In this document: positions 9,198-30,028 of the stretch, in pieces
Numbering within the stretch: position 1 is the stretch's first letter
How the letters are laid out: each line of letters starts with the position of its first letter
Source of the DNA: a bacterium
GTDB taxonomy: Bacteria; Patescibacteriota; Minisyncoccia; UBA6257; UBA9933
Reading direction: 5' to 3'
NCBI GenBank assembly: GCA_021786355.1
Contig: JAJYNK010000017.1
Coordinates: 1-37,290 of the forward strand
DNA: 37,290 nucleotides
Notes under the pieces: generated by a model
What the model saw: the letters and a program-made list of their open reading frames with translations, nothing else
Databases searched by the model: none
Told to the model about the DNA's origin: nothing
Position numbers and translations under genes: made by a program

Positions 9198-9360
9198 CGA
9201 ATCCCATTATAATATCACGAGGCAATTATGCCGAGTAAGTATCGGCGAAGTCAAATATCTACTTATCACGCGATATTTACAGCTTCGCTGTGATAATAAT
9301 AGATAAAAGCTCAACTAAAAAGTTTCGCGATATTATTGTTTGGTTTAGCCTCACTCTAAA

Positions 9361-9493
9361 CCCCGCACCAAAAGAAGATATTTCATTCCTTTGGAGCATC
9401 AATGTTTACCCTCCTAAACACCATAGCAACAAAGTGAAGTTGATTGCTAAAACTTTTGAATATCTTGCTCCACAATCTTCTATTGGTGCGGGG
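9361..9493. repeat. 133-bp inverted-repeat element with 19-bp arms and internal sub-hairpins
   Basis: CCCCGCACCAAAAGAAGAT (9361-9379) pairs with ATCTTCTATTGGTGCGGGG (9475-9493), 18/19 complementary. Confidence 0.8.
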
Positions 9494-9632
9494 TAAACCC
9501 CTATTTTCTAATTATAAAATACTGCGATAAGCCGTGTCAACAATCCACCCTTAACGGTATTAATATAGACAACGAAACTTAATCGCTGACGTTACAACCT
9601 TGCCTATAGTAATTCGCTGGCTGGCGGACAAA

Positions 9633-15367: not shown

Positions 15368-16018
15368 TTAACGGTTTATGGACGGAATAGAAGGATCTCT
15401 TAATAAAATCTTTTCTTTGACTCTTCCGGGGATAATCAAATCCGGAACCAAAAAAATCACCATAGCGCCTATTATTGACAGAAACCCGACCATGAGAAAC
15501 ACGAAAGGAAAGCCGAAAAAATTCGCCAAAATACCGCTTAACATCGACGCCACAAATGCGGCCAGTCCGACAACCGTGCTGTCCAAAGACCAGTCAAAAG
15601 AAAATCTACTTTTATCCAAATGGCGGGAAAAAATCCCATACCATGACGGCACATACAAAGCCATTGCTACGGCATAAATCGCCTGAACCAAAAAAACATG
15701 CCATAATTTCGTTGAAATCGAAAAAGTGAAGGCCGCCGCCCCTCCCAAAAGAAGCGCCAAAACCAAGGCATAAAAATCATCTTTTTCTCCGTCGTTTTTA
15801 TCAAGATAGTTGGCGACGGGAATTTGAATTATAGATTTAATCAACCAATAAGTCGCGGCGATCAGTCCTACGCTTATAAGCGTTGCCCCGGCGATTTTTT
15901 CTATCACAAAAATCGAAAAAATTGGGCTGATTAAACTCCAACCTCCGATAAAAAACAAATCGGACAAAACCAAAAATTTAACAACTCGGTTAATCGATAT
16001 GTTGAAAGTTATTTTCAT
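15368..16018 (-). CDS. MFS-type transporter, half-size (about 6 TM); start probably ATG at 16018
   Basis: Hydrophobic segments and MFS-like organisation; the called N-terminal MCG lies in the flanking inverted repeat. Confidence 0.7.
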   Translation of the reverse strand: MKITFNISINRVVKFLVLSDLFFIGGWSLISPIFSIFVIEKIAGATLISVGLIAATYWLIKSIIQIPVANYLDKNDGEKDDFYALVLALLLGGAAAFTFSISTKLWHVFLVQAIYAVAMALYVPSWYGIFSRHLDKSRFSFDWSLDSTVVGLAAFVASMLSGILANFFGFPFVFLMVGFLSIIGAMVIFLVPDLIIPGRVKEKILLRDPSIPSINR

Positions 16019-16315
16019 CCCACACATAATTTACGCCAAAAAAGTATTGCGGAGACGTTCTTTTAGTCGCCGCAAACCTTGAGCGTGCAGTTTTAATGAT
16101 TTTTCTCGGTTAAAAGCATCGACTTTAGATATATAGCCTTCAAAATATATCAACCTCCAAGGTGTTTTATTTTTTGTAGACAAAGAACCCTTCTTGTTAT
16201 GCACTTCTATTCTTTGCTTGAGATTGTTAGTGCAACCAATATACAAATTTTTATCTTTCATTGATTGTAACACGTAAACAAAGTGCATAACAGCGTAAAT
16301 TATGTGTGGGATGAA
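16014..16315. mobile_element. Inverted-repeat element enclosing a GIY-YIG ORF
   Basis: Perfect 23-bp arms TTCATCCCACACATAATTTACGC (16014-16036) / GCGTAAATTATGTGTGGGATGAA (16293-16315). Confidence 0.75.
16031..16288 (-). CDS. GIY-YIG nuclease-domain protein
   Basis: MHFVYVLQSMKDKNLYIGCTNNLKQRIEVHN...REKSLK. Confidence 0.9.
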   Translation of the reverse strand: MHFVYVLQSMKDKNLYIGCTNNLKQRIEVHNKKGSLSTKNKTPWRLIYFEGYISKVDAFNREKSLKLHAQGLRRLKERLRNTFLA

Positions 16316-20805: not shown

Positions 20806-21411
20806 TTATATCTTTTGAACTTGCAATGAATCCAATTCGACCGCCGTTTCTCTTCCGAATATCGGCACCATAACTTTTAATTTCCCTTGTTCTTCATCGA
20901 TGGAACTTATTTTGCCTTCATAATCCTTAAACGGGCCGTCGACAATCCTAACCAATTCACCCGTCTGATATTCGATTTTGAATTTTTTCTTTTCTTCGCC
21001 TCTCATTCTGTCCAAAAGAAAATCAACTTCGGACTTAGAAAGCGGAACCGGCTTTGTGGAATCTGCGCCGACAAATCCTGTTACTCTCGGCGTGTTTCTG
21101 ACAACATACCAAGAATCTTCACTCATCACCATATCCACTAAAACATATCCCGGATAAATTTTTTCCTCCGTTTCTCTTCTTTTGCCGTTTTTTATTTTTA
21201 TTTTTTTTTCTTTGGGAACGATAATGCTAAAAATTTTATCCTGCATATCGAGCGATTCCACTCTTTGCTTTAAATAACGCGCCACCGCGTCTTCGTATCC
21301 GGAATAGGTGTGAATGGCGTACCAATGCCTTTCCCCCTTAAATTCGCTTTTTTTATCTTTTTCCATAATTGTTGAAATTTTAGAGCTCATCTGTAGCGAA
21401 TAAAATTTCAC
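20806..21411 (-). CDS. nusG: Transcription antitermination factor NusG (true start probably MEKDKK...)
   Basis: [43 protein letters not shown]. Confidence 0.96.
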
Positions 21412-21423
21412 TACAATTATGAG
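21386..21423 (-). promoter_or_regulatory. Hairpin overlapping a nusG start-codon candidate
   Basis: Minus strand CTCATAATTGTAGTGAA-ATTTTA-TTCGCTACAGATGAG; 9-bp stem plus CTCAT/ATGAG. Confidence 0.55.
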
Positions 21424-21425
21424 AA

Positions 21426-21534
21426 CCCCGCACCTTTTGTAGCATAGATTTATTAATATGTCGATTTTGAGCCGTAGGCGACTTCGTCTTCATGGTTTTG
21501 TATTTGCATAATCTTTGCACCAAAAGGTGCGGGG
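21426..21534. repeat. Inverted-repeat element between secE and nusG
   Basis: CCCCGCACCTTTTG (21426-21439) / CAAAAGGTGCGGGG (21521-21534), 14-bp perfect arms. Confidence 0.8.
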
Positions 21535-21535
21535 T

Positions 21536-21597
21536 AAGGTTTTGTATCTAAATTTTGTCCAGTCAGCTGGCGGATCCAAAATTTAGACAAAGCCCTT
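21536..21597. repeat. Flanking hairpin module abutting the secE stop codon
   Basis: AAGGTTTTGT…CTAAATTTTG…CAAAATTTAG-ACAAAGCCCTT; counterpart at 29984-30028. Confidence 0.7.
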
Positions 21598-21787
21598 ATA
21601 TTTTTAAAACAAAAACTTTAATTAAATATCCGAATATGCCGTCTAAAACTCCCAAAAAAACCATAATAATTATGGAAAATATGATAACCGCAAGCGTCAA
21701 ATTAATCGACTCCTTGCGAGTGGGCCAATTAACCCGCTTGAGCTCTATCCAAGATTCCTGAATATAATTTTTTAAACGGCTGAACAT
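21596..21787 (-). CDS. secE: Preprotein translocase subunit SecE
   Basis: FIQ-like ESWIELKRVNWPTRKESINLTLAVIIFSIIIMVFLGVLD; located upstream of nusG. Confidence 0.93.
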   Translation of the reverse strand: MFSRLKNYIQESWIELKRVNWPTRKESINLTLAVIIFSIIIMVFLGVLDGIFGYLIKVFVLKI

Positions 21788-21788
21788 T

Positions 21789-22102
21789 CCCTGTAGTGAA
21801 ATTTCAATTTAAATTTTTACTTTTAGAATAGAAATATTCTTTTAGACGACGTTTTAATAAGCGGTTGCCTTGTGTTGTTTTAAAATATTTTTCTCTGCGT
21901 TTAGCGTCATTTTCATTTAAACACGCCTCGTAGTATATACATTTCCACGACTTGTATGGTTTAGTGGAAAAATTTAATCCCTGATTATGTTCTTTTAACC
22001 TTTTAATCAAATCTTTTGTATATCCAACATATACATTACTATTCTTCAAGCCTTCAATTACGTACACATAGAACATAATCAGATTGAAATTCTACTACGG
22101 GG
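21789..22102. mobile_element. Inverted-repeat element enclosing a second GIY-YIG ORF
   Basis: CCCTGTAGTGAAATTTCAAT (21789-21808) / ATTGAAATTCTACTACGGGG (22083-22102), 17/20 complementary. Confidence 0.75.
21804..22076 (-). CDS. GIY-YIG nuclease-domain protein
   Basis: MFYVYVIEGLKNSNVYVGYTKDLIKRLKEHN...REKYFKTTQG. Confidence 0.92.
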   Translation of the reverse strand: MFYVYVIEGLKNSNVYVGYTKDLIKRLKEHNQGLNFSTKPYKSWKCIYYEACLNENDAKRREKYFKTTQGNRLLKRRLKEYFYSKSKNLN

Positions 22103-22132
22103 CATTGTGTATTATAAATATGACAAAACGAA

Positions 22133-24389: not shown

Positions 24390-24446
24390 CGGTCTAAGGG
24401 ACCAAGGATTCAAAAAACCTAAATATCCAAGATCCCAAGTTCAATA

Positions 24447-25058
24447 CTACTTGCGGACCGCGGCGAAACGGCAGTAGACGCTCCAGCCAGACCCGAGCCA
24501 GAACAGTCGCAGGTAGCGCTCCGAGCCGCTCCAGAAGAGGTACGGACAGAAGCGGCTGCCGTACGAGTCCTGCCACACGGAAGCCAGACCGATAATCGGA
24601 AACTCTCGCTGGAGTTCCGGGTGGTTGGCGCCAAAGGCAAGAAGCTCGTGAAGCTCAGCCGGGCGGAGACCGCGCTTGTCCAACTCGGCCAACGCCTCTT
24701 TGGTGGAGACGACCCGGTTGAAATGCACCAACTCGATCTCAACCTCCGCCTTGCCCGACCGGTTGGTCGGGAAGTTCTTCTGAGTGATGTCATTATTCAC
24801 CCAGTCGTACTTTCCGGCTGCGATCGCGTCGGTGATCGGCTGGTCGTAGTTGACGATGAGGCGGTAGATGTTGGGGTTGACAGAAACAACACGGCTGCGC
24901 CCGTCAAGAACATCCAGTACTTGGCCAAGAACCGTTCCTTCTGAAAGCTTTTTGATCATAGCGTTGGTCCACTGCGACCCGTCGCTCCCGCGAGTCCGAC
25001 GAAACGCCGCTTTCAATTCTCCCGCCTGATCAACATCGAGCATCAAGTTCTCGCTCAT
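24447..25058 (-). CDS. GC-rich hypothetical protein (family resembles a conserved CPR hypothetical)
   Basis: MSENLMLDVDQAGELKAAFRR...; SD AAGGAGAG before ATG; own terminator; start taken at MSEN rather than the provided 25079. Confidence 0.7.
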   Translation of the reverse strand: MSENLMLDVDQAGELKAAFRRTRGSDGSQWTNAMIKKLSEGTVLGQVLDVLDGRSRVVSVNPNIYRLIVNYDQPITDAIAAGKYDWVNNDITQKNFPTNRSGKAEVEIELVHFNRVVSTKEALAELDKRGLRPAELHELLAFGANHPELQREFPIIGLASVWQDSYGSRFCPYLFWSGSERYLRLFWLGSGWSVYCRFAAVRK

Positions 25059-25117
25059 CGTTGTCTCTCCTTTTTGCAACAGTGTTCTTGCGAACGCGTT
25101 GCGGTTTAAGGATTCAC

Positions 25118-29868: not shown

Positions 29869-29927
29869 GCCAATGTTGTTTAAATTTACAAGCTCAATGC
29901 GCAGTAAATTTTACCACAACATTGAGC

Positions 29928-29983
29928 ACCCAGCACCATTTTTGAAAAATAGAAAATTCTATAGTACAAAAATGGTGCTGGGT
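29928..29983. repeat. Inverted-repeat element with 17-bp perfect arms
   Basis: ACCCAGCACCATTTTTG (29928-29944) / CAAAAATGGTGCTGGGT (29967-29983). Confidence 0.85.
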
Positions 29984-30028
29984 AAAGGTTTTGTAATTCC
30001 GACCAAAGCGTCGGAAACAAAGCCCTTT
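29984..30028. repeat. Flanking hairpin module abutting the histidine kinase stop codon
   Basis: AAAGGTTTTGTAATTCCGAC…GTCGGAAACAAAGCCCTTT. Confidence 0.7.

Follow-up and report, generated by a model that had tools for sequence, protein, structure and literature searches.

The rRNA genes of CPR bacteria carry insertions that encode GIY-YIG proteins, belong to neither group I nor group II introns and were left uncharacterised; the same genes harbour many ORF-less insertions of <200 bp (PMC11270868). Compared by description, these insertions resemble the locus presented here in their host radiation, their GIY-YIG ORF and their many short ORF-less forms, but they are reported from rRNA genes only, and arms, duplications, start-codon sites and coevolution of nuclease and arms are not described in the part of that source available to us. 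The closest solved folds and sequences of the nuclease belong to UPF0213 and SLX1 proteins, whose catalytic Tyr, Arg, His and Glu positions are kept here; SLX1 acts with SLX4 in branched-DNA repair, whereas the mobile copies are single-domain proteins encoded between complementary arms. IS200/IS605 elements and the RAYT/REP system are likewise minimal, with hairpin ends, a short target motif and non-autonomous palindromic intergenic copies, but they use a Y1 HUH enzyme and leave no duplication, whereas the present elements combine a GIY-YIG protein with complementary ends and 4-bp repeats. DDE insertion sequences and MITEs share terminal inverted repeats, target-site duplication and ORF-less derivatives; in contrast to them, the elements described here are much shorter than a typical IS, encode no DDE protein, GIY-YIG being their sole ORF, and vary widely in arm sequence between subfamilies while keeping the pairing. 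A search for two transposase families, Y1 (PF01797) and DDE_Tnp_1 (PF01609), found neither in the genome under study nor in that of a sister species. HEARO/IscB elements and 23S rRNA intervening sequences are also structured insertions of small size that contain a nuclease gene or have ends able to form a stem; here there is no HNH/RuvC nuclease besides the GIY-YIG protein, no match to a conserved RNA of Rfam, and the sites are mainly mRNA starts. Rfam searches of loci L001-L011 at E<=1 returned no element match and no intron, only a neighbouring tmRNA, and the insertions lie between genes, unlike group I or homing introns. A survey of the open-access literature found no GIY-YIG transposon with arms and duplications (TIR/TSD).

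The window, that is the whole stretch of 37,290 nucleotides analysed, contains a GIY-YIG ORF at the start of an MFS transporter gene. The features of this locus are the following.

16018..16311 (294 bp), minus strand: element 1, TCCCACACAT...ATGTGTGGGA, with an empty site in sister species G001; ends placed by the rule drawn from 75 relatives.
16293..16311, minus strand: 5' terminal arm of element 1, perfect inverted repeat.
16018..16036, minus strand: 3' terminal arm of element 1, containing the stop codon of the ORF and the first base of the MFS ATG.
16312..16315, minus strand: left target tetranucleotide, TTCA on the minus strand, the reverse complement of the native TGAA (compared with the empty site GTTATTA-TGAA-AATAA).
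16014..16017, minus strand: right, native target tetranucleotide TGAA, bases 2-5 of the MFS ORF (compared with the empty site).
16031..16288, minus strand: GIY-YIG nuclease ORF, 85 aa (Pfam PF01541, alignment A1, fold match to UPF0213 and SLX1).
16281..16292, minus strand: 5' side of the inner stem, TGTTATGCACTT, including the ORF start codon (family-wide covariation).
16195..16206, minus strand: 3' side of the inner stem, AAGTGCATAACA, codons around E-V-H-N-K (family-wide covariation).
15368..16018, minus strand: host MFS transporter gene with its native ATG at 16018 (Pfam MFS_1; orthologues start MKI...).

The sequence-only reading of the window had described a GIY-YIG ORF wrapped by a 23-nt perfect inverted repeat, and its geometry is borne out. 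The arms 16014-16036 and 16293-16315 are 100% complementary; the ORF runs from 16288 to 16031 on the minus strand, with its ATG 4 nt inward of the upstream arm and its stop TAA (16033-16031) inside the downstream arm, which also holds the MFS ATG (MKITF...) at 16018. Several orthologues begin MKI..., which makes this the native MFS start. The imperfect pairing said to continue outward from the arms is present as well (AGTTATTATTCAT vs AGTTATTTTCAT). At up to three mismatches the 23-nt arm occurs at these two sites only in the window (0.00 expected from dinucleotide shuffles), and an 18-nt part of it has, beyond its two sites, no better than 3-mismatch matches in the own and sister genomes. Two features had been overlooked: the bases round the ORF ATG (16281-16292) pair perfectly with 16195-16206, the codons surrounding the conserved His30, and a second GIY-YIG element lies at 21789-22102.

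That the locus is an inserted element is observed directly by comparison with G001, a species of the same genus whose orthologous MFS protein is 91% identical. Its MFS start reads GCAGTTATT-ATGAAAATAAA, where the window has GCAGTTATT-ATTCAT-CCCACACA...TGTGTGGG-ATGAAAATAACT, and the flanks align well on both sides, leaving a clean empty site at the same start codon. Three further GIY-YIG copies of the own genome, the secE copy at 21789-22102, L002 near infA, and L005, are absent from G001, so that the empty alleles there are at odds with plain vertical inheritance of ORF and arms. In genome G012 the MFS orthologue has an ORF-less copy of a large class at its start; this start codon has therefore been struck at least twice.

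The empty site also settles how far the arms mirror the host gene. The proposal had been that the second arm repeats the host start region in mirrored form; this holds for the outermost 4-5 bp, TTCA(T) against the native (A)TGAA, and fails for the rest, since the bases CCCACACATAATTTACGC belong to the element and have no counterpart at the empty site, by which a mirror of the whole arm is ruled out. What remains of the mirror is a single inverted repeat of 4 bp together with the T/A pair at the termini, all other bases matching the scheme GTTATTA-[4 bp]-TCCC...GGGA-[4 bp]-AATAAC. Because related copies carry a direct 4-bp repeat at the equivalent place (TGAA...TGAA, TGGA...TGGA), the inverted TTCA most likely goes back to a change after insertion, or to an atypical outcome, at one of the two duplicates of the target site. 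Arms of inverted repeats are reported to be homogenised by template switching between them (PMC8794818, PMC8604942). Such homogenisation after insertion could have converted TGAA into TTCA, which would best account for the mirror at this copy.

Four further elements are found in the window, one with an ORF and three without.

21789..22102 (314 bp), minus strand: element 2, CCCCGTAG...CTACAGGG, at the secE start codon, with GIY-YIG ORF 21804-22076 (GIY-YIG Pfam) and an empty site in G001.
22103..22106, minus strand: upstream AATG target-site duplicate; the empty allele has one AATG, the filled allele two.
21785..21788, minus strand: downstream AATG target-site duplicate, containing the secE ATG (21787).
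21367..21597, minus strand: element 3, ORF-less, large class, taking up the interval from the secE stop to the nusG ATG; also in G001.
29869..30026, minus strand: element 4, ORF-less, large class, between the stop codon of a histidine kinase gene and the mutM ATG.
9361..9493, strand not assigned: element 5, ORF-less 133-bp copy, CCCCGCACCAA..TTGGTGCGGGG.

The secE site displays the target-site duplication directly, one AATG in the empty allele of G001 having become AATG on both sides of the element. Element 5 has TTTA (minus strand) directly repeated on either side, at 9357-9360 and 9494-9497, element 3 contains an inner pair ACCCCGCACCTTTT..AAAAGGTGCGGGGT at 21425-21535, and element 4 has an ORF-bearing relative at the mutM start of genome G094 (L094/L213). 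When one mismatch is allowed, the 14-nt arm ACCCCGCACCTTTT has 43 matches in the own genome and 25 in G001, with one control match each; these matches are mostly paired, the pairs spanning 56-143 bp. The inner arm parts of ORF-less copies co-vary (TTTTATGGAT/ATCCATAAAA, TTTTACGGAT/ATCCGTAAAA, TTTTGTGGAT/ATCCACAAAA). Members of the larger class possess conserved outer hairpins (AAAGGGCTTTGTCTAAATTT...GGC); 20 of 22 matches have an ORF starting at, or a few bases from, their right end, and about 16 of the 22 begin on the stop codon of the preceding gene. Elsewhere in the window, two long ORFs overlap in different frames on the minus strand at 24419-25079.

The element belongs to a dispersed family. 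A scan of a collection of genome contigs with the window protein as query detected no relative; the relatives come from whole-genome searches. A profile built from 12 members detected the family in 87 of the order's 121 genomes and, at a stricter threshold, in 55 of 192 genomes of the phylum, where a GIY-YIG ORF is repeatedly the one ORF enclosed by arms. Two copies of the own genome, L004 and L005, are 90% identical across 310 bp, exactly from ACCCCGCACC to GGTGCGGGGT, and have unrelated flanks; genome G066 carries three near-identical copies behind tRNA genes. An inverted repeat hugging the ORF (local score >=24) was called at 101 of 137 distinct loci (74%), as opposed to 2.5% in mismatched upstream/downstream pairs. 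Arm sequences vary between copies while complementarity is kept, the ends taking the form (Y)CCC...GGG(R). With the ends placed at the outer CCC...GGG in 75 elements, an exact 4-bp direct repeat sits at the boundary in 24 (2.2 expected from shuffled partners). The repeats TTGA, TGAA, TATG, TCAA, TGGA, TACA, CCGA, CATA and TTTA fit the motif YNNR, the AATG of secE does not, and in the focal copy the repeat is inverted instead of direct. In the remaining 51 elements the exact repeat is absent, which could be due to decay, to other subfamilies or to wrong end calls. Copies in unrelated flanks with exact ends, empty sites and target-site duplication, the marks of a transposable element, are thus all present. 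At L107 and L108, another inverted copy of the same arm follows 2-3 nt past the element end (GTGTGGGGG-ccg-ACCCCCACAC), which indicates that ends can be stacked head to head.

As the sequence-only reading had suspected for the focal copy, the family sits on translation starts: 32 of the 75 elements (43%) end 0-7 nt before the ATG of a same-strand ORF of at least 60 aa, against a background of 3.2%, and the focal copy is the one case in which the opposite element end precedes such an ATG. The stop of the nuclease ORF falls at -4 to +15 of the downstream ATG in 30 of the 32 elements; nine overlap it as ATGA and three touch it, which is the layout of translational coupling. The preference may stem partly from the target sequence, with ATG lying within the repeat, and partly from survival: the exact spacing of 0 nt and the single orientation argue for the former, and the little other harmless DNA left in these genomes for the latter. 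The pattern could also partly reflect the purging of insertions elsewhere.

Genes for structural RNAs form a second group of neighbours, a tRNA gene lying within 40 nt of 16 of 111 loci. Three loci from three genomes lie at the 5' end of the RNase P RNA, L204 above the gathering score and L089 and L097 below it; at all three the 3' arm of the element continues directly into the RNA (GGGG|AGGAAAGTCCGG) and may replace part of helix P1. Armless GIY-YIG copies are found directly before tRNA genes (L138, L139, L135, L121, L026, L037, L023, L137), some of them overlapping the predicted tRNA 5' end, and may use another end type. L006, in the own genome at C24:13786, is an armless GIY-YIG gene ending just upstream of the tmRNA gene.

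Repeated occupation of the same genes raises the question of homing. In four pairs of homologous host genes both members, each from a different host genome, carry a copy, and the mutM start is occupied both in this window and in G094, that is in two genera. Since GIY-YIG enzymes are known as homing endonucleases, the ORF could be a free-standing homing gene that spreads by cutting empty alleles, followed by host recombination, the flanking repeat being only a regulatory or termination hairpin. We regard this as improbable: the arms are the exact boundary of homology between L004 and L005, they occur without the gene in many ORF-less copies, they are flanked by direct repeats, and copies occupy many unrelated sites; homing by itself opens no new sites.

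The nuclease is maintained and is tied to its arms. The window protein matches the Pfam GIY-YIG family (PF01541) above cut-off (E=1.9e-15) and, as expected of the superfamily, its domain has the catalytic Tyr, Tyr, Arg and Glu; the invariant residues of alignment A1 are Y5, Y16, G18, R26, H30 and E62. Its structural model (mean pLDDT 76) finds its best fold matches in UPF0213 BH0048 and SLX1, with weak E-values of 0.001-0.02 and a probability of 1.0, in agreement with the sequence search. dN/dS values of 0.04-0.21 between close copies indicate purifying selection on the ORF. On a short tree of 75 nucleases (87 columns, many forks unresolved), arm class requires 15 changes against a shuffled mean of 45, with 0 of 200 shuffles as low, and host family requires 50 against about 55; judged from these comparisons, arm type follows the nuclease tree and not the host tree.

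This coevolution bears on another possibility: the arms could be a miniature element that depends on an unrelated transposase for its movement, the GIY-YIG gene being cargo or a gene for host control. ORF-less copies are indeed common, and inverted ends with a 4-bp duplication resemble DDE elements. We nevertheless hold it to be very improbable: the two transposase families sought are absent from the own and sister genomes, arm class would not be expected to track the tree of a cargo gene, and the GIY-YIG gene is found again and again across the phylum alone between arms.

Other GIY-YIG genes of the same genome deserve mention. At L008 (C8:5901), the domain is fused to the N-terminal end of a frame of 396 codons, which further contains GYAWGENIGWI-like repeats and ends in a peptidoglycan-binding-like stretch; a surface protein gene has possibly captured the nuclease ORF here. 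L010 (C47:24510) and L011 (C30:2425) are GIY-YIG genes of more remote relationship. The palindromic repeats on their flanks, GTCATTGCGAGCG.../GTCATCCCGAGCG..., resemble the widespread REP-type repeats of other bacteria and possibly represent a parallel partnership of nuclease and repeat.

The inner stem is a feature of the family as well. The start-codon and His-codon regions complement each other better inside one element than across elements (z=11.3), and 33 of 95 non-redundant elements have runs of at least 9 pairs, as opposed to 7.5 (maximum 14) after permutation; about two thirds of elements have no inner stem in this register. Amino-acid changes accompany the stem, MHF going with EVHN in the window, H-S replacing H-N in L118 and MR going with AHQ in L014. 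That the stem is a mere by-product of the conserved MFF and EEHN motifs is ruled out as a full explanation by the permutation among elements.

Such structure could also act at the RNA level. The insertion would then be a structured RNA or intervening sequence (IVS-like or HEARO-like), its stem cut by RNase III or serving as RNA partner of the nuclease, with arms kept for RNA folding and DNA mobility as a by-product. The sense strand of the element folds very stably (-96 kcal/mol), the covarying inner stem covers the start codon, the large class has extra hairpins, and insertions in RNase P RNA and beside tRNA genes would be tolerable if the RNA is processed. This explanation is unlikely, though the least so of the alternatives considered. 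Mismatches on the sense strand show no excess of G-U, with 6 G/T, 6 A/C and 7 other in the arms and 2 G-U and 3 A-C in the inner stem (small counts); G-U not exceeding A-C, no preference for RNA over DNA folding is apparent. Likewise, no Rfam family matches the elements, and direct repeats and ORF-less copies are signs of a DNA-level process.

The reading we favour, with a probability of about 0.72, is that of a minimal transposon, not yet described, whose sole protein is an SLX1/UPF0213-like GIY-YIG nuclease and which belongs to a family of about 265-375 bp in Patescibacteria-like genomes. It is supported by the insertion and its ends, the duplications, the copies in unrelated flanks, the shorter ORF-less copies that share these ends, the purifying selection on the nuclease, the coevolution and the site preference. 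The nuclease itself would mobilise the element. It would recognise the folded ends, arm stem and start-codon stem together forming a branched structure of the kind cut by SLX1-type nucleases, and would break targets that have YNNR at their core, in many cases the ATG(A) of a gene start, and the element would insert between the resulting 4-bp repeats. The host gene would retain its start codon, which is among the duplicated bases, and could be translated by coupling, since the stop of the ORF overlaps that codon or comes very close to it; insertions of this kind would therefore be tolerated. ORF-less copies would be mobilised in trans, and the nuclease is probably translated less from read-through transcripts owing to the stem that covers its start codon. 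Cutting by the nuclease, its reading of branched DNA formed by the arms, the strand-joining route and rescue of the host gene by coupling are inferred. To our knowledge, characterised GIY-YIG enzymes produce nicks or 3' overhangs, and neither alone gives 4-bp duplications; this counts against the reading, as do the armless copies near tRNA genes, the inverted repeat at the focal copy and the 51 elements that lack an exact repeat.

Minimal transposable elements with non-autonomous copies are a known kind; there is a fair chance that the present one constitutes a new superfamily. The odds seem slightly in favour of a superfamily of ~300 bp DNA transposons whose sole protein is an 85-aa GIY-YIG mobiliser, whose ends are read by structure and vary in sequence, which duplicate YNNR, target translation starts, stop-start junctions, tRNA and RNase P RNA genes, and sustain a large non-autonomous population. 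If this is true, they would be among the smallest autonomous transposons, and a fold known from repair, restriction and homing would also drive the whole life cycle of a transposon, with gene content cut to the minimum. They would account for the many small GIY-YIG genes of Patescibacteria and possibly for the rRNA-gene insertions reported there. They would also illustrate how an element can invade start codons and operon junctions and yet leave the gene working, and the leaders and translation coupling of these reduced genomes would be partly transposon-made.
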